Source: Planctomycetota bacterium | Lineage (GTDB): Bacteria; Planctomycetota; Planctomycetia; Pirellulales; PLA5 | Length of the DNA: 32,882 nt | Direction of reading: 5' to 3' | NCBI GenBank assembly: GCA_003576845.1 | Contig: QEVJ01000061.1 | Span: forward strand, 1 to 32,882 | Shown here: positions 5,027-29,892 of the stretch, one piece after another | Position numbering within the stretch: position 1 is the stretch's first letter | Layout of the letters: each line of letters starts with the position of its first letter | Made by a program: the position numbers and the translations under genes | Notes under the pieces: generated by a model | Databases searched by the model: none | Seen by the model: only the letters and a program-made list of their open reading frames with translations | Told to the model about the DNA's origin: nothing

Positions 5027-5738
5027 GCCGCGCATCGTACGATTCGACGAAGAACACGCCGCCGTGCCAACGCCGGCGGGCAGCGATCCCGCCGCGCCGC
5101 TCGGCGCGAGCCTCGTCGCGACCGTGGGCGACAATCCAAGCGCCGTCGAAACGCCTCCGAAAGACCCTGTCCACGACACGATTCGCGGCGAAGCGTTCGA
5201 CACGATCGCCAATTGGGACCCCGACGACGCGTTGCTCAACGACCCGATGATGCAGTGCCTGGCCCGGCAACTTGGCGATGACGCGGAGCGCTTGGCCAAG
5301 CGATATCCGGCCGAAGGTTGGATTCCACCCGCGATCGAGCAAGATTCGACGCGGCCGCCGCCCGCCGCATACGCGCGGATATGGCGGCGTGCGATTGCGG
5401 TCGCGCTTGGGGCTTGCCTGTTGATCGCGGTCGGTCCGCCGTCGAGCCGTGATCGCGGCGTCCAAGGCATCCGAGCCGTCGAATCCGCGAATTCCCCCGA
5501 TCGTGAATCGCAAGCCGCGCCGCTGCCGGTCGATCGCGTGACGTATGAAGACGGCGATGCCGCGATCTGGGGCTCGAACCCCATCGACGACTCGCAGTTC
5601 GGCGACGTGCAATTCGGCGTTTTGCAGTTCGGCGACGATCGCGGCGCGGAAGGTGGCGTCCTCTCGCGGCCGGCGCACGAAGCCTTGCGCGACCTGCTGC
5701 CCTCCGATTCGCACGAATACTGCGACGTTTCGATGTAA
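4995..5738 (+). CDS. Single-TM membrane protein, candidate anti-sigma factor
   Basis: A 247-aa protein of no recognised family. It has a cytoplasmic-looking acidic N-terminal region (1-125), one membrane segment at about 128-147 (WRRAIAVALGACLLIAVG), then a region of about 95 residues. The zinc anti-sigma HxxxCxxC motif is absent. Its start overlaps the sigma gene by 32 nt, and its stop overlaps the next start (TAATG), so the three genes look translationally coupled. Position and topology suggest a partner of the sigma factor; this is inference. Around residues 201-214 a short QFGD-like unit occurs three times (nucleotides about 5596-5637). A GTG at 5016 is an alternative start. Confidence 0.65.
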   Translation: MPVRTRSVPFKPRIVRFDEEHAAVPTPAGSDPAAPLGASLVATVGDNPSAVETPPKDPVHDTIRGEAFDTIANWDPDDALLNDPMMQCLARQLGDDAERLAKRYPAEGWIPPAIEQDSTRPPPAAYARIWRRAIAVALGACLLIAVGPPSSRDRGVQGIRAVESANSPDRESQAAPLPVDRVTYEDGDAAIWGSNPIDDSQFGDVQFGVLQFGDDRGAEGGVLSRPAHEALRDLLPSDSHEYCDVSM

Positions 5739-7267
5739 TGGCGGCGGCAGATTTGTCGTCGCAACTGCTTGCCGTGGCGGAGCCGCGTTCCTTCGATCCG
5801 GCGGTGTCGGCCATGCGTGCGTCATTGAACTTGATGCTCTCCATCGCGCTTTCGCTCGCCGCCGGCGCTTCCGCGTTCGCGGTGGAGGAATCGGTCGAGA
5901 ACGCCGCCAAAACCTTGTCCGCGGCGACGGTCACGGTGCGGATGCAAAGTCCTGGCGGCGAACGCGCGGAAAAGAACGACGCCGACGCTGGGTTGTCGGG
6001 CGAAGCCAACGCTCCACGCGCGACCGCATCCGACGACGAGCCGCGCGGCGACGCGACCGGACCATCGCCGGACGAGCGACGCGCGCGTGGACGCCGCTTT
6101 ACGCTCGCGTCGGGCGTGTGCGTCGGCGAAAACCTGATCGTTACGGCGCTGCGTCCGCAGAAGGAAAACGAATTCCGCGTCACGTTGCCCGGGGGACAGC
6201 GGGCCGAGGCCAGGCTCTGCGTATTCGATGCCCATAGCACGCTGGCCTTGCTCGAAACCAAGGCCGAGCGCGGCGCCAAGCCTGCCGTTTCTCCGCTCGC
6301 GATCGCTTCGCAACCCGCCGCGCTCGGTACGCGGCTGGTCGCGGCGTCCGCCTGGGGTTCGGAGTCGCCTACGGTCTCGGTCGGCGTCCTTGGCGGCGTC
6401 GATCGATTCATTCCCTCTTCTCTGTTGCCGCCGCTGCTACAGTGCGACGTGCATACGACGGAAACGTCGCGCGGCGCAGGCGTCGTAAATGCGGCCGGCG
6501 AACTCGTGGGAATCGTCGTGGCCGTCGAAGGCGACGATCGCCGATCGAGTTGGACCTACCTCATTGGCGCGGAGCACGTCGACCGATTGATCGCGGCACG
6601 CAAGCCGGGAGAAGTGGTCGAGTTGCCGCGGCGCGTGGCGCACGCGGGCTTGGACCTGCGCCAAGTTGCGGGCTCGGATACGCTCGTGGTGAAGAACGTC
6701 GTCGCCGGAGGGCCGGCGGAAAAGGCCGGCATCCGCGCCGGAGATGAATTGCGGTCGCTCGACGGGCGAGCCATTCACAGCGCGTTCGCCGCAGCGCGGA
6801 CCGTCGCTAGCCGAAAACCCGGCGATGCGATCGCCTGTGCGGTGCGCCGCGGCGAGGCTGAATTGAACCTGACGCTGACGCTCGAAGCGAGCGCCGACGA
6901 ACCCGCCATCTCCTATAAAGCCAAGGAGTCGCCGGCCCGAGACTCCGACGAGTCGGGCAAGGCCGCGACGCAAGCGGCCACAACGGAAAACGACGGCAAG
7001 CAGACCGACCCGCGCCGACTGCCCGAGTTGTCGAAGGGCCGGTCCGCCGAAAGCAAGCCGGCCACGATTCCCGCAATCGCCCCAGGCCGTAGGACCGATT
7101 CGCTCGACGATCTTCGGGCACGCTTGCGACAGCAGGAGGACCTCGTTCGGCGGCTGGAAGCGGAGTTGGCCGAATTGCGCCGCGAGCGCGACCGGTTTGC
7201 CGGAGCGTCTGCCGAATCGCATGCGCCGGCCGCGCCGCGCGGACAATCGACGCCCGCGCCGCGTTGA
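5738..7267 (+). CDS. HtrA/DegS-like PDZ protein with degenerate protease triad
   Basis: A 509-aa exported protein. A signal peptide core lies at residues about 30-48 and ends ASAFA. A trypsin-like domain follows (about 115-290) and a PDZ domain (about 303-385, with GGPAEKAGIRAGDEL). A basic low-complexity linker and a coiled coil (about 455-490, leucine/arginine heptads) complete it. The protease fold is recognisable, but where HtrA proteins have the catalytic His (TNxHV) this has TALRP (136-140). The Asp of the DxAL motif is replaced (STLALL, 167-172), and the GNSGG serine site reads TSRGA (243-247, Arg at the Ser position). It is therefore probably inactive and may act as a peptide or envelope-stress sensor. 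The ATG at 5813 would place the signal peptide at the N-terminus and is a good alternative start. Confidence 0.8.
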   Translation: MAAADLSSQLLAVAEPRSFDPAVSAMRASLNLMLSIALSLAAGASAFAVEESVENAAKTLSAATVTVRMQSPGGERAEKNDADAGLSGEANAPRATASDDEPRGDATGPSPDERRARGRRFTLASGVCVGENLIVTALRPQKENEFRVTLPGGQRAEARLCVFDAHSTLALLETKAERGAKPAVSPLAIASQPAALGTRLVAASAWGSESPTVSVGVLGGVDRFIPSSLLPPLLQCDVHTTETSRGAGVVNAAGELVGIVVAVEGDDRRSSWTYLIGAEHVDRLIAARKPGEVVELPRRVAHAGLDLRQVAGSDTLVVKNVVAGGPAEKAGIRAGDELRSLDGRAIHSAFAAARTVASRKPGDAIACAVRRGEAELNLTLTLEASADEPAISYKAKESPARDSDESGKAATQAATTENDGKQTDPRRLPELSKGRSAESKPATIPAIAPGRRTDSLDDLRARLRQQEDLVRRLEAELAELRRERDRFAGASAESHAPAAPRGQSTPAPR

Positions 7268-7833: not shown

Positions 7834-10518
7834 ATGACACGCATTAACACGAACGTCGGTTCGCTCATCGCCCAGAAGACCTTGGCGCGGTCGAACACCC
7901 AACTGCAAGAATCCCTCACGCGGTTGAGCACGGGCTTGCGGATCAACGTCGGCAAGGATGACCCCGCCGGCTTGATCGCCAGCGAAGTGCTGCGATCCGA
8001 CATCATCAGCGTGCAACGTGCGATCACCAACAGCGAGCGGGCAAACCAGATCATCGCCACGGCCGACAGCGCCTTGGGCCAGGTTAGCGCGTTGCTCAAC
8101 GACATCCGCGGTCTCGTTTCGGAGGCCGCCAACACGGGCGCCTTGAGCGACGAACAGATCGCCGCCAACCAGTTGCAGGTAGACTCTTCGCTCGAAGCCA
8201 TCGACCGCATCGCTCAGACTACGAGCTTCCAGGGCCGCCGATTGCTAGACGGCAGCTTGGACTTCATCACGAGCACCGGCGCGACTGGTTTTGCCACCGG
8301 CGTCGTCGGCAACACGCTCGGCGTCGCGGCCACCGGCTCGTTCGGCGATCCCGACGGCGTGGCGGCGACGGGCACCATTACCAAGACGGGCGTCGCTTCG
8401 ACGGGCACGATCACGAACAACGCCGACACGTTGATATTCACGGCCGACAACGTGGGGTCCGTTTACGACGGCTTGGATGTGACGTTCGTCGTCTCCGGCG
8501 CCGTCTCGGCAGGTTCCGAAGTGGTGAACTACGATTCCACCGCAAACACGGTGCAAATCACGATCAATGCGGCATCGACGACGACGCAAATCCGTGCAGC
8601 ACTTAACGCCCATACGGGTTTCGCGGCGAACTGGACCGTCACGGGGGCCGGCGGCACCGAAGTTTATACGGCCGGCAACAACGCCGCCAACCTGACGACG
8701 GGCGGCTTGAACACGGACACGATTACGATTACGGCCGATCAGCCGGGCACGGCGTACAACGGTCTCGACGTGACATTCGTCGCGGACGCCTCCGGCGCCG
8801 GCAGCGAAACGGTCGACTACAACAGCACGACCAAGGCCGCTACGGTCCACATCCATGCGAACTCGACGACCACGCAGATCGTCGCCGCCCTCAACAACAC
8901 CGGCGCCTTTGCCTCGGAGTATACCGCCAGCGGCACCGGCTCGCGGAACTACGTCGTCGGCGACAGCGCCACGAACGTCACGTCGGGCGGCACCGAGGCC
9001 AACTTGATTAACCTGACGGCCGTGGACACGGGCGACACGCTCAACGGTCTCGATGTGACGGTCGCCATCGGCGGCGCCGTCGGGTCCGAAACCGCCGTGC
9101 TCGCCGGTAGCACGCTGACCCTGACGGTCAACGCCGCGTCGACCGTCACCGATGTGGTCGCCGCCATCAATGCCCAAGTCGCCGAATTGACCGCCTCCGC
9201 GGGAGCGGGCAACGGGGTGTTCACCGCCGGCACGTCCAACAACGTCCTGTCGGGTGGCGTCGACGGCAATCAGTTCCAACTCACCGCGCTGCAAGCCGGA
9301 TCCGACTTCGACAATATCACCGTCAACTTCACCGTCAACGCCGCGTTGGGCGTGGGCAACGAAGTCGCCGCCTACGACTCGACGACGAAAGTGTTGAGCA
9401 TCACGGTCGACGATACGTCGACCACGGGCGACGTCATCGCGGAAATCAACGGCACGCTGGGAACCCTGTTCTCCGCCACCGCCCTCGATGGCACCGCCGG
9501 CATCTACACCGATGCCGATGACGAAACCAACGTTACGACCGGCGGAACTGGCTCGGGCGCCTTCCAGAACCTCCGCATCGACCAGGCAAACTTCGGCACG
9601 CTAAGTCAGATCGACGTCGACGTTACCGTCGATGCACAGGCCACGAAGGCCCGACTCGTCTACTCCGGCGGAAACCTCACGGCCGACTTGAGCTTGCAAG
9701 TCGGCGGTAAGAGCGGCTTCGAAGTGTTCCAGTTCGGGGCCACCACCGGCATTCAAGGTATCGCCGACGCCCTGAATCTCGTGTCCGACGCGACCGGCGT
9801 CACCGCGACCGTCGACGGAACCGACCTTCTCCTCGAATCCAGCGAATACGGCGCGGATGCGTTCGTGTCCGTCCAATCGCTCAATAGCACTCCGTTCCTG
9901 ACGACGCTTGAGGACGGACTGACTCAGTCCTCTCGCACAAACGGCACCGACGTGTCGGTTCGCATCAACGGCGTCCAGGCGACGGGCGAAGGCTTGAAGG
10001 CCTCGCTCAACACGTCGACGCTCGACTTGAGCTTCTCGGTCGACGATTCCTTGATCGACGGCAGCAGTTTCTCATTCTCGATTACCGGTGGCGGCGCCAT
10101 CTTCCAGCTCGGTCCCGACGTAGTATCGAACCAGCAAGCTCGAGTCGGCATCCAGGGCGTGAGCACGTCGACCTTGGGCGGCGTAAGCGGCACGCTCTAT
10201 GAACTCCGCTCCGGAAACGATAGGGATTTAGCGACCGACGTGAAGGGCGCGGCGAAGATCGTCGACGAGGTCATCACCTCGGTCACCGGACTTCGCGGCC
10301 GACTCGGCGCCTTCCAACGCACGACGCTTGAAACCAACATCTTCACCCTGAACGACACCGTGGCCAGCCTCGTCGAAGCCGAAAGCTCGATTCGCGATGC
10401 CGACTTCGCCGCCGAAAGCGCTCGGCTCACCCGGGCACAAATCCTCGTGCAGTCCGGCGTGTCCGTGCTCGCCATCGCCAACCAGAACCCGCAAAACGTG
10501 CTCGCCCTGCTGCGGTAA
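7834..10518 (+). CDS. fliC: Flagellin, very long, with repeated variable domain
   Basis: The 894-aa filament subunit is secreted through the flagellar type III apparatus. Conserved N-terminal D0/D1 helices occupy about residues 1-140 (INTNVGSLIAQKTL, LSTGLRIN, DDPAGLIASE, TSFQGRRLLDG). C-terminal D1/D0 helices occupy about 795-894 (SSIRDADFAAESARL, ending QNPQNVLALLR). The roughly 650-residue middle is the surface-exposed variable region. It contains four degenerate tandem modules (residues 198-294, 295-389, 390-478, 479-571) followed by further beta-rich sequence. This is nearly twice the common flagellin length. AGAGGG at 7818-7823 precedes the ATG by ten bases. A sigma28-like promoter and hairpins lie upstream and an intrinsic terminator lies downstream, so it is probably monocistronic. 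The repeated module also occurs in the next gene, fliD. Confidence 0.95.
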   Translation: MTRINTNVGSLIAQKTLARSNTQLQESLTRLSTGLRINVGKDDPAGLIASEVLRSDIISVQRAITNSERANQIIATADSALGQVSALLNDIRGLVSEAANTGALSDEQIAANQLQVDSSLEAIDRIAQTTSFQGRRLLDGSLDFITSTGATGFATGVVGNTLGVAATGSFGDPDGVAATGTITKTGVASTGTITNNADTLIFTADNVGSVYDGLDVTFVVSGAVSAGSEVVNYDSTANTVQITINAASTTTQIRAALNAHTGFAANWTVTGAGGTEVYTAGNNAANLTTGGLNTDTITITADQPGTAYNGLDVTFVADASGAGSETVDYNSTTKAATVHIHANSTTTQIVAALNNTGAFASEYTASGTGSRNYVVGDSATNVTSGGTEANLINLTAVDTGDTLNGLDVTVAIGGAVGSETAVLAGSTLTLTVNAASTVTDVVAAINAQVAELTASAGAGNGVFTAGTSNNVLSGGVDGNQFQLTALQAGSDFDNITVNFTVNAALGVGNEVAAYDSTTKVLSITVDDTSTTGDVIAEINGTLGTLFSATALDGTAGIYTDADDETNVTTGGTGSGAFQNLRIDQANFGTLSQIDVDVTVDAQATKARLVYSGGNLTADLSLQVGGKSGFEVFQFGATTGIQGIADALNLVSDATGVTATVDGTDLLLESSEYGADAFVSVQSLNSTPFLTTLEDGLTQSSRTNGTDVSVRINGVQATGEGLKASLNTSTLDLSFSVDDSLIDGSSFSFSITGGGAIFQLGPDVVSNQQARVGIQGVSTSTLGGVSGTLYELRSGNDRDLATDVKGAAKIVDEVITSVTGLRGRLGAFQRTTLETNIFTLNDTVASLVEAESSIRDADFAAESARLTRAQILVQSGVSVLAIANQNPQNVLALLR
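8425..9546 (+). repeat. Four tandem ~90-97-residue modules in flagellin
   Basis: Units run 8425-8715, 8716-9000, 9001-9267 and 9268-9546. Each begins with an xITA/LTA strand, then a turn and a hydrophobic strand of GLDVTF type, a GxE segment, and YDSTxxxLxI. These are followed by an A-x-STTxxIxAALN helix-like segment and an ending TTGG or TSGG. Similarity between units is clear in protein but degenerate, so the duplications are old. A fifth copy lies in fliD at 11635-11934. Confidence 0.8.
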
Positions 10519-10549
10519 GCGGCGCGGTTCGCGAAAGGTCGAAAACAAC

Positions 10550-10587
10550 AGCCGGGCCATCGCTCCGCGCGGTGGACCGGCTTTTTT
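10550..10587 (+). terminator. Intrinsic terminator after flagellin
   Basis: The outer stem AGCCGG/CCGGCT (10550-10555 with 10577-10582) and an inner CCAT/GTGG pairing close a GC-rich loop. Six T follow at 10582-10587. It lies 32 bp after the flagellin stop and separates fliC from fliD. Confidence 0.75.
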
Positions 10588-10719
10588 CGTCTGCCTGCCC
10601 GAGAGCCCTTCCCGGCGGTCGCCAAACTTTGCCCACGCGGTTCAGCTTCTCATGCCGCGCGGTCGATACCAAAGAATACGTGGCGGACTGGGGCCTCCCG
10701 ATCGCATTGAACTACGGCT

Positions 10720-13700
10720 ATGGGACGCATCACTTCCTCGATCGGTCTGGTGTCCGGCGTGCCCATCGCCGAGACCGTCGAAAAGCTGGTCGCGCTCCAG
10801 ACCGGACCGCGAGACCAGCTCGTCGCGTCGGTCAAAAAGACGACCGAACGGCAGACCGCCATCGTCGATCTCACGGCGCGCCTGATCGCCCTTCAGTTTT
10901 CGAGCAACGCCCTCGGCCAGACCTCGTCGTTCGACGCCGTATCCGCCGCCAGCAGCGATACGAACACGCTCGGTGTGACGGCCGGAGCTGATGCCGCGGT
11001 CGGCACGCACCAGATCACCGTTCTCCGCAAGGCCCAATCGCAACAGTCGATCACCACCGGATTCGCGTCGCGCTCGGCCTTCGTCGGCGCGGGAACGCTC
11101 GCGTTTCGCTTCGGCGGCGCCGTCGATCCCGATACGTCGCTTGGCCTCGCCAACGGCGGAACCGGCATCCCCCGAGGGCTAATCCGCATTACCGACCGTA
11201 GCGGCGCCGCCGCCGATATCGACCTGCGCTATGCCCGCACCGTCAACGACGTTCTCGACGCGATCAACAACAACACGGCGATCCGAGTGACCGCGGAAGT
11301 CGACGGCGACGCCATCCGCCTCGTCGACCGTACCGGCCAGTCCCTCGCCAACCTCCGCGTCGACGAAGTCGGCGTCGGCGGAAAAACGGCCGCCGCGCTG
11401 GGACTCGCGGGCATCAATGTCTCCGACAACAGCGCAACCGGCGAAGACATAGTGAGCCTCGGCCGCGCCGTCCAACTCGCCGCCCTCAACGACGGACTCG
11501 GCCTACGGATCAGCGAAACGCTGCCCGACTTGCGCGTCTCGCTCCGCGACGGCTCGACCGTCGAAGTCGACCTGCACCGGGCCTCAACCGGCGACCGTGA
11601 AGCCACCGCGACGACGACGGCCGCCAACGGTCCCGACGCGCGGTTGAGAATCACGTCCGTCGAAAAGGGCGCGACATGGGACGGCGTAAAGATCGTCTTC
11701 GTCGACGACCCGGCCATCACCGTTGGCAACGAAACCGCCGTCTACGACGCCAGCGATCCCGAGAACAAAACGCTCACGTTTCACATCGACGCCGGCAACA
11801 GCACGGCCGGAGACATTGCGGCGGCGGCAGCCAACGCGCCGTTGCTTGCCGGGAACTTCACCGTCGCCATCGACGAGTCTGGCGACGGCACGGGCATCGT
11901 CGAAGTGACCGACACCGGCCTCACCTCCGGCGGCGCTCCCCGAGCCGCCGTCCACGAACTGAGCCTCGGCGAACTCATCGACACGATCAACGCCGTCGCG
12001 CCCGACAAGCTCCGCATCGAAATCGGTCCCGATGGCGACCGCCTCCAGCTCGTCGACCTCACCACCGACGCCGGTCACGATTTCCAGGTCGAGGGCTTGT
12101 TCGGTTCGCAACTCGCCCGCGACCTCGGACTCGACGGCGAAGCCGACCGCGACACGATCGAGGGCGGCCGCATTCTCGCCGGACTCAACACGGTGCTGCT
12201 CAAGTCGCTCGCCGGCGGCGGAGGCTTCGGCCAACTCGGCACGCTCGCAATCACCAATCGCGTCGGCGGATCGGCGACCGTCGACCTTGCTACGGCGGAA
12301 ACGCTAAACGACGTGCTCGATCTGATCGACGCCGCAGATGCCGGCGTCCGGGCCGAGATCAATCGCGCCCGCAACGGAATCAACCTCGTCGACACGAGCG
12401 GCGGCACGGGCAATCTCGTCGTCGAAAACGGCGACGCCGACACCCACACCGCCGAGAAGCTCCAGCTCGCGACGAACAAGCCCACCCCGCGCGCGGAATC
12501 GGGAAACCTGAGGCTGCAAACCGTTGGCGAGAACACCACGCTCGCATCGCTCAACGGCGGAAACGGCATCGCCGCGGGACGAATCCGCATCTACGACTCG
12601 CTCGGCGGTACGAACAGCCTAAACCTCGCTGCCGACTCGATCGAGACGATCGGCGATGTGATCGATGCCATCAACGCGCTTGCCGTGCAGGTCACCGCCC
12701 GCATCAACGACGACGGCGACGGCATCGTACTCGTCGACGAAGCCGGTGGAACGCGGCAAATCAAAGTCGAGGACATCGCCGGGCACTCCGCCCGCGATTT
12801 GGGGCTGCTCGGCGAAGGCCAGACGGTCGAAATCGAGGGCGAAGAGCGTTCGGTCATCAGTGGTTCGTCGACGATTCGCATCGATATCGACGCCGACGAC
12901 ACGCTCGACGATCTGGCCGCCAAAATCAATGCCCGTGACGCCGGCGTGACGACCGGCGTGCTCGGCGACGGCGCGCTGTTCCGGCTTACGCTTGCCAGCG
13001 TCCGATCGGGCGACGCTGGAAACGTCCTGTTCGATACCACCGGCCTGCAATTCGAGATCGACCAGACCGTCCGCGGTCAGGACGCCCTCGTCCTCTACGG
13101 CGCCGGCGACAACGCGGCAAGCACGGTCCTCGCATCGTCGCGCACCAACACCTTCGCGAATCTCGTGAGCGGACTTACCCTCGACGTCAAAAACGTGTCG
13201 AGCGCCGCCGTAACCGTTTCCGTCACGCGCAGCGACACGCAGGCCGTCACCCGCGCCAAGGCCTTCGTCGACGCCTTCAACGCCCTTCACGAAAAGCTCG
13301 ACGGATACACGTCGTTCGACAACGAGACGTTCAAGACCGGCGTGTTGTTCGGGTCGGTCGAGGCGCTGCGGATTCAATCCGACGTCTCCCGCGTGCTGAC
13401 GGGGCGCATCTTCGGCGCCGGGCAATTCACCTCGCTCAAACAACTCGGCATCGACCTCGACCAGGACGGCGCACTCAAGTTCGACGAAGCCGCGTTCACC
13501 GCGGCCCTGTCCCAAGACCGCGGCGCCGTCAAACAGTTCTTCACCCAAGAGGAGTCGAGCTTCTCAAAACGCCTGAGCGACGCCATCGAATCGCTCGCGG
13601 GAAGAGATCGGTCGCTCCTCGTCTCGCGGGCCGCAACGATCGAAACGCAGATCAAGAACGACAACGCCCGCGTCGATTTCCTCAATGCACGGCTCGACAA

Positions 13701-13827
13701 AACCCGCGAAAAGCTGCTGTTGCAGTTCTATCGCATGGAAGCCGCGATTGCGAAGGTCCAAAGCAGCCTGACGGCCATCCAGCAAATCCAAGCCGTCCCG
13801 CCGCTGGGTTCGACGAGCAGTAAATAG
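10720..13827 (+). CDS. fliD: Flagellar filament cap protein FliD (hook-associated protein 2)
   Basis: The 1035-aa FliD sits as an oligomer at the filament tip and promotes flagellin assembly. The N-terminal FliD domain (about 1-100) has the typical GLVSGVPIAETVEKLVALQ. The C-terminal FliD domain (about 790-1020) ends in a coiled coil (LNARLDKTREKLLLQFYRME). Between them are several Flagellin-IN-type repeats, recognised by DVLDAIN, a hydrophobic strand and IxLVD followed by a glycine turn, near residues 150-240, 265-300 plus 410-470, 505-580 and 620-700. Residues 306-405 carry a copy of the flagellin variable module and split the second IN-type repeat. It is about twice the usual FliD length. 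The start ATG has only a weak Shine-Dalgarno but fits the family N-terminus. Confidence 0.93.
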   Translation: MGRITSSIGLVSGVPIAETVEKLVALQTGPRDQLVASVKKTTERQTAIVDLTARLIALQFSSNALGQTSSFDAVSAASSDTNTLGVTAGADAAVGTHQITVLRKAQSQQSITTGFASRSAFVGAGTLAFRFGGAVDPDTSLGLANGGTGIPRGLIRITDRSGAAADIDLRYARTVNDVLDAINNNTAIRVTAEVDGDAIRLVDRTGQSLANLRVDEVGVGGKTAAALGLAGINVSDNSATGEDIVSLGRAVQLAALNDGLGLRISETLPDLRVSLRDGSTVEVDLHRASTGDREATATTTAANGPDARLRITSVEKGATWDGVKIVFVDDPAITVGNETAVYDASDPENKTLTFHIDAGNSTAGDIAAAAANAPLLAGNFTVAIDESGDGTGIVEVTDTGLTSGGAPRAAVHELSLGELIDTINAVAPDKLRIEIGPDGDRLQLVDLTTDAGHDFQVEGLFGSQLARDLGLDGEADRDTIEGGRILAGLNTVLLKSLAGGGGFGQLGTLAITNRVGGSATVDLATAETLNDVLDLIDAADAGVRAEINRARNGINLVDTSGGTGNLVVENGDADTHTAEKLQLATNKPTPRAESGNLRLQTVGENTTLASLNGGNGIAAGRIRIYDSLGGTNSLNLAADSIETIGDVIDAINALAVQVTARINDDGDGIVLVDEAGGTRQIKVEDIAGHSARDLGLLGEGQTVEIEGEERSVISGSSTIRIDIDADDTLDDLAAKINARDAGVTTGVLGDGALFRLTLASVRSGDAGNVLFDTTGLQFEIDQTVRGQDALVLYGAGDNAASTVLASSRTNTFANLVSGLTLDVKNVSSAAVTVSVTRSDTQAVTRAKAFVDAFNALHEKLDGYTSFDNETFKTGVLFGSVEALRIQSDVSRVLTGRIFGAGQFTSLKQLGIDLDQDGALKFDEAAFTAALSQDRGAVKQFFTQEESSFSKRLSDAIESLAGRDRSLLVSRAATIETQIKNDNARVDFLNARLDKTREKLLLQFYRMEAAIAKVQSSLTAIQQIQAVPPLGSTSSK
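11635..11934 (+). repeat. Flagellin variable-domain module inside fliD
   Basis: FliD residues 306-405 follow the pattern of the four flagellin modules: LRITS, then GVKIVF, GNETAVYD, LTFHIDAGNSTAGDIAAAA and the ending LTSGG. The flanks, GSTVEVDL before and SLGELIDTIN after, read as the two halves of one Flagellin-IN-type repeat, which points to insertion of the module. Confidence 0.7.
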
Positions 13828-13858: not shown

Positions 13859-13950
13859 ATGCAAAATGCAAAATGCAAAATGAAGAATGAAAAATGAAAA
13901 ATGGCGTTCGAGGCATTTCATTTTTCATTCTTCATTTTGCCTTTTGCATT
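13859..13950. repeat. AT-rich inverted word repeat between fliD and fliS
   Basis: The left arm (13859-13902) is built from words ATGCAAA and ATGAAAA. The right arm (13915-13950) is nearly its reverse complement, around a 12-base loop. About 25 bases pair without mismatch (core GCAAAATGAAGAATGAAAAA). The same words recur at 28776-28873 and 27845-27868. It is sharply AT-rich against GC-rich surroundings and could fold into a long hairpin in the fliD-fliS transcript. Confidence 0.85.
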
Positions 13951-13992
13951 GTCCCATAATCCAACCCCGTCCCCTATCGAGACTCCCACCGC

Positions 13993-14490
13993 ATGGACGC
14001 CGCCGCTCGCGAACAATACTTGTCGTCGCAAATCTTCACCGCCACGCCGGAACGATTGCATCTGATGCTGATAGACGGGGCAATTCGCTTCGCCCGGCAG
14101 TTGCGCGACGCGCTCGCCGCGGGCGACCGCGAGACCGCCACGATCGTCGGCGAACGGTGCCGGAACGTGCTCAGCGAAATGCTGCTGTGCGTCGAGCGCG
14201 ACGCCAACGAAGCAGCCGTCCGACTTCGGTCGATCTATACGTTTCTCGTCCGCGAAGTCGCCGACGCCCAGTTCCGCCGCCAAGCCGAGAAAGTCGACGG
14301 TGTCTTGGCGGTGCTTGAGATCGAACGCGAGACCTGGGCGCTCGTTTGCGAGCAAGCCGGCCCGCGCGACTTCCGCCGCGACGAGCCTCATGCGCCCGCG
14401 CCGCACGAACCTGTGTCTCAGCACGCCCCTGTGTTGCCTTCGCTCGAACCCCCGCCGCTCGTCGGCGAGTCGTTCTCCTTTCAGGCCTAG
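13993..14490 (+). CDS. fliS: Flagellar export chaperone FliS
   Basis: The 165-aa cytoplasmic chaperone binds the flagellin C-terminus and prevents premature polymerisation. The helical FliS core covers residues 1-125: YLSSQIFTATPERLHLMLIDGAIRFARQ at the start, a middle LRSIYTFLVREV helix, and a final VLEIERETWALVCEQ. A proline-rich tail of about 35 residues is not part of the fold. It follows fliD, as in many bacteria, and is followed 17 bp later by a paralogue with the same hallmarks. Confidence 0.88.
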   Translation: MDAAAREQYLSSQIFTATPERLHLMLIDGAIRFARQLRDALAAGDRETATIVGERCRNVLSEMLLCVERDANEAAVRLRSIYTFLVREVADAQFRRQAEKVDGVLAVLEIERETWALVCEQAGPRDFRRDEPHAPAPHEPVSQHAPVLPSLEPPPLVGESFSFQA

Positions 14491-25639: not shown

Positions 25640-26812
25640 TCACCGCTTCTCGCGCTCGATCCACTGCGCCACGCGCTCGCGGCAGTAGGCGTCGTCGCGC
25701 GAACGACGCAACAAATCGCCGAGCGACTCGACGTGTTGCCCGAAGTCCGAAAGCGGTGCCGCCGCCGATCGCCGCGGCCGCCCAAAGATCGGCCAACTCC
25801 CCAGCGTCACCACGATTGCCAGAGCAATCGCGTGATAGAGCATGTCGCTGATCGGCGGCGGGTAATCCGCTTCGGTCGGCGGCTGAACTTTGGGGTCGTT
25901 CTTGTGTACTCGCGGACCGCCCTCGTCGCTTTCCAGGAACACCACGTCGCACTCGCTGCCCGACTGTAACTCGACCGCGTCGATCAGCTCCGCCGCGAGC
26001 CTGCGATGCTCGCGGTTGACCAGCGCCAGGTTCAGCAAAAACGAACCATTTTGCACGATGAACAACGCCCCGTCGCCGAACTGCATCCGCCGCAAGCGCG
26101 AGACGACCGCGCTGTCCTCGGTGTACAAGAGTAGCTCGTCGCTCTCCTCGACCGTCAGCCGATCGTTGAGTTCGATCTCCGTCTTGGCGACGTCGATCGT
26201 CTCGCTCCATTCGCCTTGCAGCGAACTGCGAACGTCGGCCTTTGCTTCGTTCTCGTCCGGCAAAAGCTCGGTCGTCCGCGTCAATCGAAACCAGCCTTCC
26301 GAAGGCCGTTCGCCGCGGCGGTCGGGCTGCCGTTTCGCATCCTCGAAGAACCGCGTCGCCGCCACGCGCACCTTGGCCGCTTCGAGCAGCTGGCGCAATT
26401 CCTCGCGCTTTTCGGGCGGCGCTTTGGCGATCGCCTTTTCCCAATACAGCGGCTCGGCGTCAAAATCGCGGCCGACGTAAACGAGCGTCCGCCCGAAACC
26501 ACTCCGCAGCCAGTCCTCGAACCATCGCCGCACCTCGGGCCGCGGCGGATGGAAGTCGTCGGGAAACCACACGATCACGTCCGCCGTCTCGATCGCCGGC
26601 GACAGCGCCGAACGCGCCGAAACCTTGTGCCCCGCCTGCGCGAACATGCCCGCGATCACCGCCGTGCCGTTGAGGCTGTCGCCGTGCGACCGGCCGCGCT
26701 GACGCCCGTACTCGACGTTCACCTGCGACTGCTCTTCGGGCTCGGCGCATCCGCCGGCGAGCAGCGTGCACCACGCCGCGAAGGCAAACATCCATCGCCG
26801 CCGACCGCTCAT
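25640..26812 (-). CDS. DUF4350-domain lipoprotein
   Basis: A 390-aa membrane protein. The N-terminus is a lipoprotein signal (hydrophobic stretch ending LLAGGC, lipidated Cys at 22). The DUF4350 segment follows (SLNGTAVIAGMFAQAGHKV, then DVIVWFPDD), resembling a glutamine amidotransferase-like Rossmann fold without enzymatic motifs. Middle and later parts contain GDGALFIVQNGSFLLNLALVN and a C-terminal membrane segment (about 332-352) followed by a cytoplasmic tail. The function is unknown; in other bacteria DUF4350 proteins lie with DUF4129, MoxR and DUF58 genes. The start overlaps the DUF4129 stop by 4 nt (ATGA), indicating coupling. The downstream MoxR and DUF58 partners are not present here. 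Confidence 0.82.
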   Translation of the reverse strand: MSGRRRWMFAFAAWCTLLAGGCAEPEEQSQVNVEYGRQRGRSHGDSLNGTAVIAGMFAQAGHKVSARSALSPAIETADVIVWFPDDFHPPRPEVRRWFEDWLRSGFGRTLVYVGRDFDAEPLYWEKAIAKAPPEKREELRQLLEAAKVRVAATRFFEDAKRQPDRRGERPSEGWFRLTRTTELLPDENEAKADVRSSLQGEWSETIDVAKTEIELNDRLTVEESDELLLYTEDSAVVSRLRRMQFGDGALFIVQNGSFLLNLALVNREHRRLAAELIDAVELQSGSECDVVFLESDEGGPRVHKNDPKVQPPTEADYPPPISDMLYHAIALAIVVTLGSWPIFGRPRRSAAAPLSDFGQHVESLGDLLRRSRDDAYCRERVAQWIEREKR

Positions 26813-27582
26813 GCTCGGGCCTCGTCGATCGAGCGGTGAAAGTCGTCGATGCCTCGCCAGGTCGTCTCGAAGTCGTCGCGCGGCAACTCCCGGCGCCCGA
26901 AGAACGCGGCCTCGAACGCGTGCATTGCCGACTCGAAGAAGCTCGCCACCGTCGGCCGCGAGCGGACTTCGCGAAGGTATTGCCGGTTCGTCTTGCCCTT
27001 GGCCAGGCGAATCAAATGCCCGCGATCGAGCCGCAAGAGCATGTGGCTGTACAAGTAGATCATTGCCCGCGCGAACTCACCCCGTTCATACAACCGCCGC
27101 GCTTCGGCCAACAAGTCCGAATCCGCCGCGGCCACCGGCACGGGCAAGGCTTCGAGATCGACGCCGGCGCTCTCCTTCGCCGTCTTCCCTTTGCGTTCCA
27201 ATCCGTCGCCCTGCAAAATTGCATACAGGATCGTGCCCACTAGGGCGGCGATAATCAACCCGACGACGATCCACGCCACGATCGCGCCGCCGGCGAGAAA
27301 ACCGCTCGGCGATCGAACGCGGAACGAGCGGCCGCGCTCGCGCTCTTCTCCCTCGCGTCCGCGCCCGCGCTCGGAGCCCGAACTCCCTTTCACCTCCTTA
27401 GCGCCGCGGACCGTCACCGGGCGCACGTCGTCGGCCTTCGCGTCATACCACGGAAAGTTGCCGCTCTCGCCCAGCGCCTCGCGCCCCGATTCGACCGGAT
27501 CGTCGATCCCGGCAAGTCCCGCAACCGGCGCGCACAACACAATGAGCCAGACGCCAACGACCGTCTTAATCGACCCTGGCAT
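26809..27582 (-). CDS. DUF4129-domain membrane protein
   Basis: A 257-aa protein with a signal peptide (1-25), a basic low-complexity extracytoplasmic region (60-90), one strong membrane helix at about 98-122 (VAWIVVGLIIAALVGTILYAIL) and a C-terminal DUF4129 domain. The domain shows GEFARAMIYLYSHMLLRLDRGHLIRL, KTNRQYLREV and the FFGRREL segment. The DUF4129 domain often occurs at the end of transglutaminase-like membrane proteins; here it stands alone. It shares an operon with DUF4350 (4-nt overlap) and probably acts with the RDD and SpoIIM proteins in an envelope complex. The exact function is unknown. Confidence 0.85.
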   Translation of the reverse strand: MPGSIKTVVGVWLIVLCAPVAGLAGIDDPVESGREALGESGNFPWYDAKADDVRPVTVRGAKEVKGSSGSERGRGREGEERERGRSFRVRSPSGFLAGGAIVAWIVVGLIIAALVGTILYAILQGDGLERKGKTAKESAGVDLEALPVPVAAADSDLLAEARRLYERGEFARAMIYLYSHMLLRLDRGHLIRLAKGKTNRQYLREVRSRPTVASFFESAMHAFEAAFFGRRELPRDDFETTWRGIDDFHRSIDEARA

Positions 27583-27871
27583 ACGCGAACCACCCGGTAC
27601 TCAAACCGCAAAGCCGCAAAGAGGCAAAGCTACGAATCCGCCAACTCACCGCGATTCTATCAGATGCGAAACAAGGAATCACGGCGACGCAGCAAACGGA
27701 TCAAACTAACCGCACCAAATCTTCGTCCCTGGGAAGTTCTTTGTCCATCGCGAAAGCGCGAAAGTACGAAATCGCGAAACGCTCGGAGGAATATTGGAAA
27801 TCCGATCAAGTGGCGCTGCGGTCGAAGTTTTCGCGGTCGTTCTGCATTCTTCATTTTGCATTCTGCCTTCC
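27583..27871. other. Intergenic region with three kinds of word repeat
   Basis: No gene is seen. Three low-complexity stretches occur: near 27604-27630, words CCGCAAAG and GGCAAAG; near 27748-27781, words GCGAAA and TACGAAA; and at 27845-27868, words TGCATTCTTCATTTTGCATT, which match one arm of the repeats at 13859 and 28776. They lie in the same style of gap as the inverted repeats elsewhere, but here without facing partners. Confidence 0.6.
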
Positions 27872-28765
27872 CTACGTGACCGTCCGCGTCATCGCAGCCG
27901 CTTCCGTGCGGACCCGCAACTCGACCTCCCAGCCTTCCCGCCGAATCCGCAAATCGAGATACCCCAAAAATCGCACGATCGCCAGAAACCAAACCGTCAT
28001 CCACAGCGCGAGGGGCAAAACCACGGTGAACGTCGCCCGGTCCGCCTCGACGACGTTGAACAGCAGCGCCCGCATGTAGGAGATCGTCAGCCACAAGCTT
28101 CCGACAGTGAGAAACCCGAGCATTCCGGCCCCGATCATCTGCACGAACGAGTCGCCGCCAAACCCGGCGTGCAGCGCGGCGTTTCTCCGAGCCGTGGTCA
28201 TCGCCGAGCCGCGTTCGGCCCGGCGCGGATTGCGCTCGAGCAGAATCACCTCGTTCAAATACGGCCGCAGTCCGCGCGCCCCCAGCGCCCATAGCGCCGC
28301 GCACCACACGATGAACTCTGGCATGACCGCAAGATCGCGTTTGTTGTCGATGGCAGCCGCCACGAGCGCGAGCATCGTTCCCCGCACCACGCCTTGATAC
28401 CAGAAAAGCTGCCCCGCCGACCGGCCGAACTCGCGGATCAGTTGCCGCGTCGTCGGCCGCGTGCGAAACAAGACCTGGCCCAGGTAGATCGTCATCAGCG
28501 ACGTGGCCAGCGGCGCTTCGAGAAACACGAGCAGCGTCATGTACTTGACGTAGTCGCTCCGTTCGTCGCCGCCGTAGAGATCCGTTTCGTCGTACTCGGC
28601 GATCGGAGAAAGTGTCCAGGCGTTGAACGCGGCGAACGGCGCCGCCCCCAAAACGAGCGCAACCGCGAGCGGTCCGAAATGCCGCCGCGCTACGTGCAGC
28701 GCCAGGTCGAACAACTCCCGCTTTCCCCGTTCGCGGATCGAGATTTCGGTTTGATTGACGAACAT
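27872..28765 (-). CDS. Polytopic membrane protein of RDD/SpoIIM/DUF4129 cluster
   Basis: A 297-aa integral membrane protein with about six hydrophobic segments, among them PLAVALVLGAAPFAAF near 33-48, LLVFLEAPLATSLMTIYLG, FIVWCAALWALGA, MLGFLTVGSLWLTI and VVLPLALWMTVWFLAIV. It has no recognised enzymatic motif. A frame open to 28843 would add 26 residues, but that stretch translates the AT-rich word repeat; the ATG at 28765 with MFVNQTEISIRERGKRELF is the natural start. It sits between the SpoIIM-domain and DUF4129 genes on the same strand, so it is probably part of the same membrane system. The function is unknown. Confidence 0.78.
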   Translation of the reverse strand: MFVNQTEISIRERGKRELFDLALHVARRHFGPLAVALVLGAAPFAAFNAWTLSPIAEYDETDLYGGDERSDYVKYMTLLVFLEAPLATSLMTIYLGQVLFRTRPTTRQLIREFGRSAGQLFWYQGVVRGTMLALVAAAIDNKRDLAVMPEFIVWCAALWALGARGLRPYLNEVILLERNPRRAERGSAMTTARRNAALHAGFGGDSFVQMIGAGMLGFLTVGSLWLTISYMRALLFNVVEADRATFTVVLPLALWMTVWFLAIVRFLGYLDLRIRREGWEVELRVRTEAAAMTRTVT

Positions 28766-28775
28766 CGGCGGTTGC

Positions 28776-28873
28776 GAAGAATGAAAAATGCAAAATGGAG
28801 AATGCAAAATGCAACCGCCCGAAGTCGCGATCGCATGCGACATTTTTCATTCTTCATTTTGCATTTTGCATTT
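28776..28873. repeat. AT-rich inverted word repeat upstream of membrane protein gene
   Basis: The left arm at 28776-28814 and right arm at 28841-28873 are made of ATGCAAA and ATGAAAA words. GAAGAATGAAAAATG (28776-28790) is the exact reverse complement of 28841-28855. A GC-rich centre (28815-28840) contains TCGCGATCGCATGCGA. It is the same family as 13859-13950, about 15 kb away, and fills the gap between the SpoIIM-domain and 297-aa membrane protein genes. Confidence 0.85.
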
Positions 28874-28884
28874 CCCCTCCTTTC

Positions 28885-29892
28885 TCACAAGTCTCTGCCG
28901 CTTTCGCCGTTCTCTGCGTCAGCGATCATCGTCCTTCCGATCGACCCGAGCACGACGAAGTAGATCATCAGCACGAGGCTCGATCCGGCGCCGAACAGCG
29001 CCTTGATTTCATACGGCAGGGCCGAGGGCGAAATGTAACCCTCGATGAGCGCCGCCAATAGGAACAAGATCATCGCGACGCCCATCGCGGGCATCGCCGA
29101 CTTGCCGGCCAAGCGAACCGAATCGCCGCGCGTGAGTCCACCGGTAAACAAGAGCGCAAACCCGAGCTTCATCCCGACTCCGGCCGCCAGCACGATCGCC
29201 GTGAGTTCGAACGGCCCATGCGCCGTGACGAACTGAAAGAAATTGTCGCGCGCATCCGGCACGGTCGTCATGTAGCCGAACACGGCGCCCAGATAGGCCG
29301 CGTTGCGGACCGTTTCCAGAATCCCGCCGATGCCGAACAACAGCCCGTGGGCAAAGACGCGCAACCCGATCGTCGTGTTGTGGCTCTGATAGAACCCGGT
29401 CATGCCCGTGCCGCCACCAAGATCCTGCTCCCACTTGGCCTGGACGTACATCTCTTCGTACATCCGCAGGTTGTCTTCGCCGACCATTTTCACGGCGAAA
29501 TCCGGCGCCGGCGAGGCATCCGACGCGAGCCACATCGACATCGCGAACAAGCCCCAGAACAGCACCGACGCCACGCGAATATAGCGGTCGGCATACAACT
29601 GCGCGGGCACGGCGTAGAGCAACTCGGCCATCCACATCCGAATCCGAAACCGCTGACTGCGGTAGATCTGGTTGTGCGCCCGGCCCACGAGCTGATGCAG
29701 ATAATCGACGGTGCTCGGCGGCAATTGATACGACTCGGCCAGAGCCAGGTCCGCGCACACCGCGCGGTAAAGAGACGCAAACCGCGCCACGACCGGCGCG
29801 GGAATCCGCCGGAACTGCTCAAGCTTGCGGCAAAGTTCGTCGAGCTGTCGCCAATTCCCCCGCCGCGATTCGAGAAGCTGCGAAACTTTCAT
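28885..29892 (-). CDS. Stage II sporulation protein M (SpoIIM) domain protein
   Basis: A 335-aa membrane protein. A soluble helical N-terminal region (about 1-95) is followed by a first membrane helix (about 106-124), a periplasmic loop, and then four or five hydrophobic segments. SpoIIM-family features include LRVFAHGLLFGIGGILE, NAAYLGAVFGYM, AHGPFELTAIVLAAGVGM with the conserved HGxxE, and GLTRGD. In Bacillus, SpoIIM belongs to a peptidoglycan-remodelling complex in engulfment; in non-sporulating bacteria the family lies beside RDD genes and its role is unknown. Both are true here: RDD lies upstream and DUF4129/DUF4350 downstream on the same strand. Confidence 0.88.
   Translation of the reverse strand: MKVSQLLESRRGNWRQLDELCRKLEQFRRIPAPVVARFASLYRAVCADLALAESYQLPPSTVDYLHQLVGRAHNQIYRSQRFRIRMWMAELLYAVPAQLYADRYIRVASVLFWGLFAMSMWLASDASPAPDFAVKMVGEDNLRMYEEMYVQAKWEQDLGGGTGMTGFYQSHNTTIGLRVFAHGLLFGIGGILETVRNAAYLGAVFGYMTTVPDARDNFFQFVTAHGPFELTAIVLAAGVGMKLGFALLFTGGLTRGDSVRLAGKSAMPAMGVAMILFLLAALIEGYISPSALPYEIKALFGAGSSLVLMIYFVVLGSIGRTMIADAENGESGRDL

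Follow-up and report, generated by a model that had tools for sequence, protein, structure and literature searches.

A tandem and nested protein module shared by flagellin, FliD and FlgL in Pirellulales

A protein module of about 95 residues is shared by the flagellin and the filament cap protein FliD of a planctomycete, and a third protein of the same genome, FlgL, carries it as well. The similarity between the flagellin and FliD modules is confirmed by sequence comparison to be far above chance and also above that of ordinary Flagellin_IN (IN) repeats. In FliD the module is a true insertion, one block within an IN-type repeat. The flagellin and fliD genes lie in a stretch of 32,882 nucleotides, called the window here. 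Its features are as follows.

7834-10518, plus strand: flagellin gene, 894 aa; Pfam Flagellin_N 7.6e-29 and Flagellin_C 2e-20
8425-8718, plus strand: flagellin module 1, profile match 1.1e-39 (this module is within the profile's seed), in tandem with modules 2-4
8716-9003, plus strand: flagellin module 2, profile match; modules 1-2 modelled together with AlphaFold, pLDDT of the block up to 95
9001-9270, plus strand: flagellin module 3, profile match; its closest relative is the same-genus flagellin module L046
9268-9552, plus strand: flagellin module 4, profile match; best BLASTP stretch to FliD, E 6.8e-6
9700-9822, plus strand: ordinary Flagellin_IN repeat of flagellin; PF07196 above cut-off, 3.5e-6
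10720-13827, plus strand: fliD (filament cap), 1035 aa; Pfam FliD_C 1.4e-36 and FliD_N 2e-14
11176-11334, plus strand: intact N-terminal IN repeat of FliD; 68.6 bits with the IN profile, which includes it as a seed
11476-11583, plus strand: left half of the split IN-type repeat of FliD, two strands ending in GSTVEVDLHR; empty-site alignment, model strands 26-30 and 36-40
11641-11937, plus strand: FliD module inside the IN-type repeat; module profile, pLDDT 94-98, orthologues with 0, 1, 2 or 3 copies here
11956-12066, plus strand: right half of the split IN-type repeat of FliD, helix SLGELIDTIN and two strands; empty-site alignment, model helix 172-182, strands 187-191 and 198-202
12238-12396, plus strand: intact IN repeat of FliD; IN profile 40 bits, not a seed
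12577-12741, plus strand: intact IN repeat of FliD; IN profile 69 bits, a seed, Pfam match sub-threshold
12832-12996, plus strand: intact IN repeat of FliD; PF07196 above cut-off, 1e-5

Both helical termini of flagellin (PF00669/PF00700) pass the Pfam cut-off in 7834-10518, as do FliD_N and FliD_C (PF02465/PF07195) in 10720-13827. On its upstream side flagellin is adjoined by a trypsin-like protease with a PDZ domain (5738-7267). Right after fliD, at 13887-14318, there is a 143-aa open reading frame (ORF) with no Pfam match, in the place where an export chaperone such as FliS is often found. Elsewhere in the window, a 272-aa ORF at 244-1062 has a type I dockerin domain, and genes for DUF4350, DUF4129 and SpoIIM-domain proteins form a run on the minus strand (25640-29892).

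A preliminary description of the window had placed four tandem modules at flagellin residues 198-571 and a fifth at FliD residues 306-405. Both placements were recovered by a search with a profile built from the window's five modules (four from flagellin and one from FliD), which returned the four flagellin segments listed above, 90-98 residues long in the middle of the protein, and about residues 308-406 of FliD. Cap and filament have a module in common, and by its position it is of the surface type. When flagellin was compared with FliD using BLASTP, the best stretch was 480-534 against 308-366 (E 6.8e-6), centred on module 4. Smith-Waterman scores of FliD 306-405 against flagellin modules 1-4 were 87, 107, 74 and 100, respectively; shuffled modules score about 36 +- 7, and the real scores were reached by none of 2000 shuffles. 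Ordinary IN repeats had been set beforehand as the yardstick for this likeness, and against four of them the same FliD segment scores only 27-44, compared with 74-107 for the modules. Furthermore, an HMM made from flagellin modules 1-4 of the window matches FliD 309-405 at 38.5 bits, and the IN repeats of FliD stay below 10 bits.

The best reading of the module is that of an elaborated relative of the Flagellin_IN repeat. It begins with a pair of strands peculiar to the module, continues with a strand-helix-strand core like that of IN repeats and finishes in T-S-G-G. Flagellin_IN (PF07196) is found in the same three proteins and aligns with the second half of the module (profile columns of about 34-83), which is IN-like at HHalign probabilities of 90-97%; six clean IN repeats aligned to the module profile give 90% over columns 34-80. 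However, an IN repeat has about 50 residues and the module about 95, with the extra N-terminal strand pair and the GG end. PF07196 is matched at E 0.1 by 9 of 92 modules (best 5.4e-5); the FliD module matches no Pfam family at E 0.1 and does not pass the PF07196 cut-off. The highest Flagellin_IN match of the genome (2.8e-8) is located at G000:C97 14620-14751, inside a 477-aa ORF. The module has no family entry in the protein-family libraries searched, and no earlier description was found in the literature searched, most subscription journals being outside its reach.

In the window, FliD reads GSTVEVDLHR, then the module, then SLGELIDTIN. Five module-less FliDs that were aligned across this site (L049, L053, L079, L081, L085) have one uninterrupted IN-type repeat there. 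The suggestion that the module splits one such repeat is borne out by these orthologues, which read straight across, and the comparison of fliD orthologues that had been proposed for checking it gave an empty site as well as 1, 2 or 3 copies at one and the same point. Most FliDs of relatives have no module, the others carrying one, two or three copies in tandem. Wherever the N-terminus is intact, the module starts 193-199 residues after the FliD_N match, with the exception of one weaker match in G047, elsewhere in the protein. In a FliD tree built without the module, its presence changes at least 5 times and its copy number at least 10 times.

Structure prediction was carried out on FliD 245-449 (AlphaFold model m509958265021) and on flagellin modules 1-2. 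An alignment that placed the IN repeat of module-less FliDs onto the module itself was excluded from folding. The FliD model has a pLDDT of 87.8 overall and 94-98 within the module; two strands precede the module and a helix and two strands come after it, as expected for an IN repeat cut in two. The flagellin model is of lower confidence (80.8). Different folds in the two proteins would have spoken against a common module, and the two models instead have the same order of elements, namely strand, short turn, strand, strand, strand, helix and strand, the comparison being one of order only. Fold searches of the PDB with both models (Foldseek and VIA-align) gave nothing above noise, which is not proof of a new fold.

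The preliminary description had also called for a search in other surface proteins, and had taken the module to belong to the filament locus. In the own genome (whole 7.05 Mb) the profile finds it in flagellin, FliD and FlgL only. FlgL, which had been missed, is encoded on contig C278, a different contig from that of flagellin and fliD, so confinement to the filament locus does not hold; nor does the profile reveal the module in further surface proteins encoded by this genome. Single-sequence matches on contigs C136 and C4 were at chance level. The FlgL gene (L016 6643-9675, G000:C278, minus strand) encodes a module nested inside another module, and a further module near the C-terminus. The same nesting is present in FlgL of G004, G005, G014 and G023; other FlgLs have the outer module alone, without the nested one, and that of G022 lacks it. 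An empty site is seen in FlgL as well. Flagellins of several genomes also have nested modules, the inner copy usually sitting between about positions 47 and 50 of the outer one, and nested copies have un-nested counterparts. One locus (L059 8066-14785, G017) holds two very similar adjoining flagellin genes with a nested module in each. The neighbour on the hook side is FlgK, and none of the 21 FlgK proteins examined has the module; a duplicate of the FlgK from the window's genome is not counted among them.

Among 97 genomes of relatives, the profile detects the module in every one sampled that has FliD (58/58) and in 1 of 39 without FliD, this single genome (G059) being a fragmented assembly. 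The 214 module matches in the fetched loci comprise 104 in flagellin, 78 in FlgL, 30 in FliD and 2 in other ORFs. Scans of named genomes with single proteins gave matches only in relatives of Blastopirellula; the FliD proteins of one genome (G077) and of Blastopirellula marina DSM 3645 share 95% identity. In class- and phylum-wide samples, where a limited number of candidates per genome was scored, nearly all module matches are within the Pirellulales. A match within a NADH-oxidoreductase chain 6 ORF (L076 17422-18462) was taken as chance. Additionally, giant ORFs of other planctomycetes (L182, L183, L184 and L080; 2389 to 8010 aa) have one or two modules each, and two of the giant-ORF genomes with the module have no FliD. 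The module is therefore not strictly flagellar, since a few giant non-flagellar ORFs also carry it.

How three proteins came to share the module was considered on the basis of these comparisons and of a tree of 147 modules, in which many forks are unresolved as the modules are short. Each protein could have separately extended a loop of an ordinary IN repeat, and the IN-like second half is what such convergence would predict. It is, however, very improbable: when only the N-terminal halves of the four flagellin modules in the window are used for an HMM, FliD 309-343 is matched at 22.2 bits and nothing else stands out, so that the N-terminal half is specifically common to flagellin and FliD, and the FliD module sits inside a separate IN repeat that stays whole in relatives. 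The preliminary description favoured a mobile or recombining module that has been spreading within the locus, and copies in three proteins, tandem and nested, with gain or loss at one site, are consistent with continuing exchange among the filament genes. Against this, the modules group by host protein, the host-protein label needing 14 changes on the tree where shuffles need 61. The FliD module of the window has a same-genus FliD module as its sister, and for flagellin modules 3 and 4 the nearest relatives lie in the flagellin of the sister species. Moreover, placing every FliD module in a single clade is compatible with the data (AU p 0.868) and gives a better fit than the unconstrained tree search, and DNA repeats between flagellin and fliD are short and about 71% alike, with no long or recent ones. 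Recent exchange between these two genes is rejected on these results, and we regard ongoing exchange in general as very improbable. The simplest history, and judging from the trees the most likely one, would be that FliD gained the module just once, early on, and that duplications and losses came later. This ancient insertion would have hit an IN repeat of FliD in the loop that connects its second strand to its helix; tandem duplication would then have raised the number to 2 or 3 copies, and several losses would have occurred. The modules of flagellin and FlgL have multiplied both in tandem and by insertion into a loop of another module.

With regard to function, we lean towards reading the module as an additional outer domain in the filament region of the Pirellulales flagellum, forming a coat from junction to cap which FliD joined by a single old gain. 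All three proteins carry it in their middle part, which would face outwards, along the axis from the junction outwards, with FlgK excepted. Each module would extend outwards from the helical core and pack against modules of the same kind on neighbouring subunits, and this packing may make the outer layer from junction to cap thicker, more stable or a better shield. The variable regions of flagellin and FlgL vary in length together (rho 0.64, n=25), the correlation on family means being rho 0.56 with p 0.059, and that of FlgK stays constant. Between families, the FliD variable region does not co-vary in length with that of flagellin (rho -0.05 on family means), so that a strict length match of cap and filament is not supported. 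As many FliDs, moreover, have no module while the flagellin of the same genome does, cap and filament need not match.

A role in adhesion or glycan binding, by which the organelle would stick to surfaces, mucus-like polymers or algae through cap, filament and junction, is the less probable of these functions, at perhaps one chance in a few. Adhesin roles of FliD and flagellin are known in several bacteria (review PMC8306008), relatives of the module are found in giant ORFs, one of which also has Calx-beta domains, a usual make-up of surface proteins, and variable copy number fits an interaction surface under changing selection. Yet the fold searches of the PDB gave no lectin or adhesin match above noise, and sequence matches to lectin-like chains were at E 0.03 or worse. 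By analogy, an outer coat is the function that our analysis would favour over adhesion.

The module may also be related to the outer domain of phage tail sheaths. The tail sheath family phrog_279 is matched by 6 of 92 modules, best 1.3e-6, at sheath positions of about 97-183, and when the 97 genomes were scanned with phrog_279, two places were matched and both were modules. An HHalign comparison of the module profile with domain II from 16 phage sheaths gives a score of 28.8, against 8.7 +- 1.5 and a maximum of 14.8 for shuffled columns. Module and sheath domain II (phrog_279; PF17481) have the motif order L-T-x-T-A-x-x-x-G-x-x-x-N, strand, strand and terminal GG in common, and each would be an outer domain added to a helical tube. 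The match is, however, remote and partly significant, and the flagellar proteins are without the conserved sheath core, which is built from both termini; theirs are flagellin and FliD domains. The relation is weak but consistent, and we regard the putative kinship as likely enough to test.

It is conceivable, though rather unlikely, that the ancestral Pirellulales flagellum captured the module from virion proteins, i.e. contractile-sheath domain II or a relative, for which the matches above argue together with four phage proteins at E <0.001 in a Foldseek search of predicted viral structures. These four are function-unassigned and superpose with large rmsd, and named sheaths are at E >0.5. HHalign gives a probability of 75% when sheath domain II is taken by itself and 24% for the entire sheath; the alignment can be drawn out over the full length, but its confident part is the first 25 columns. 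The FliD module itself has no phrog_279 match, and tblastn for module copies in phages and plasmids gave none that is convincing and no sheath in phages. Transfer could have run in either direction, and the second half of the module looks Flagellin_IN-like. A slightly better, still doubtful, case can be made for the broader proposal that a relative of the sheath outer domain was taken up by the ancestral planctomycete flagellum, became a common coat of junction, filament and cap, and grew by tandem copying and self-insertion.

Known systems resemble parts of this arrangement. The D2 domain of FlgL resembles that of FlgK, and quasi-homotypic packing has been proposed (PMC6155364); there, too, one outer-domain fold is common to neighbouring axial proteins, but in the present case FlgK is without the module and the sharing is among FlgL, flagellin and FliD. 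Giant flagellins, including one of Blastopirellula marina, have been described, and thick filaments were shown in two gammaproteobacteria (PMC6248924). In the DE region of the Oceanospirillales giant flagellins, the middle of flagellin is likewise enlarged by tandem duplication and insertion; FliD is unmentioned in the text of that work, and the module is likened to the DE region by description only. The H. pylori FliD domains D4/D5 and the Campylobacter FlaA domains D2-D4 (PMC8306008) are also extra head or outer domains on a cap or filament protein. There each protein has extra domains of its own, whereas here one module family is used in cap, filament and junction.

The Pirellulales thus offer a natural series, with 0, 1, 2 and 3 copies at one point of FliD and with un-nested and nested copies in FlgL and flagellin. 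This series lets one ask what the outer domains do, and whether those of cap, junction and filament have to correspond to one another. The kinship with the sheath domain, if confirmed, would tie together the outer layers of two unrelated helical tubes, which would then use the same kind of outer layer.
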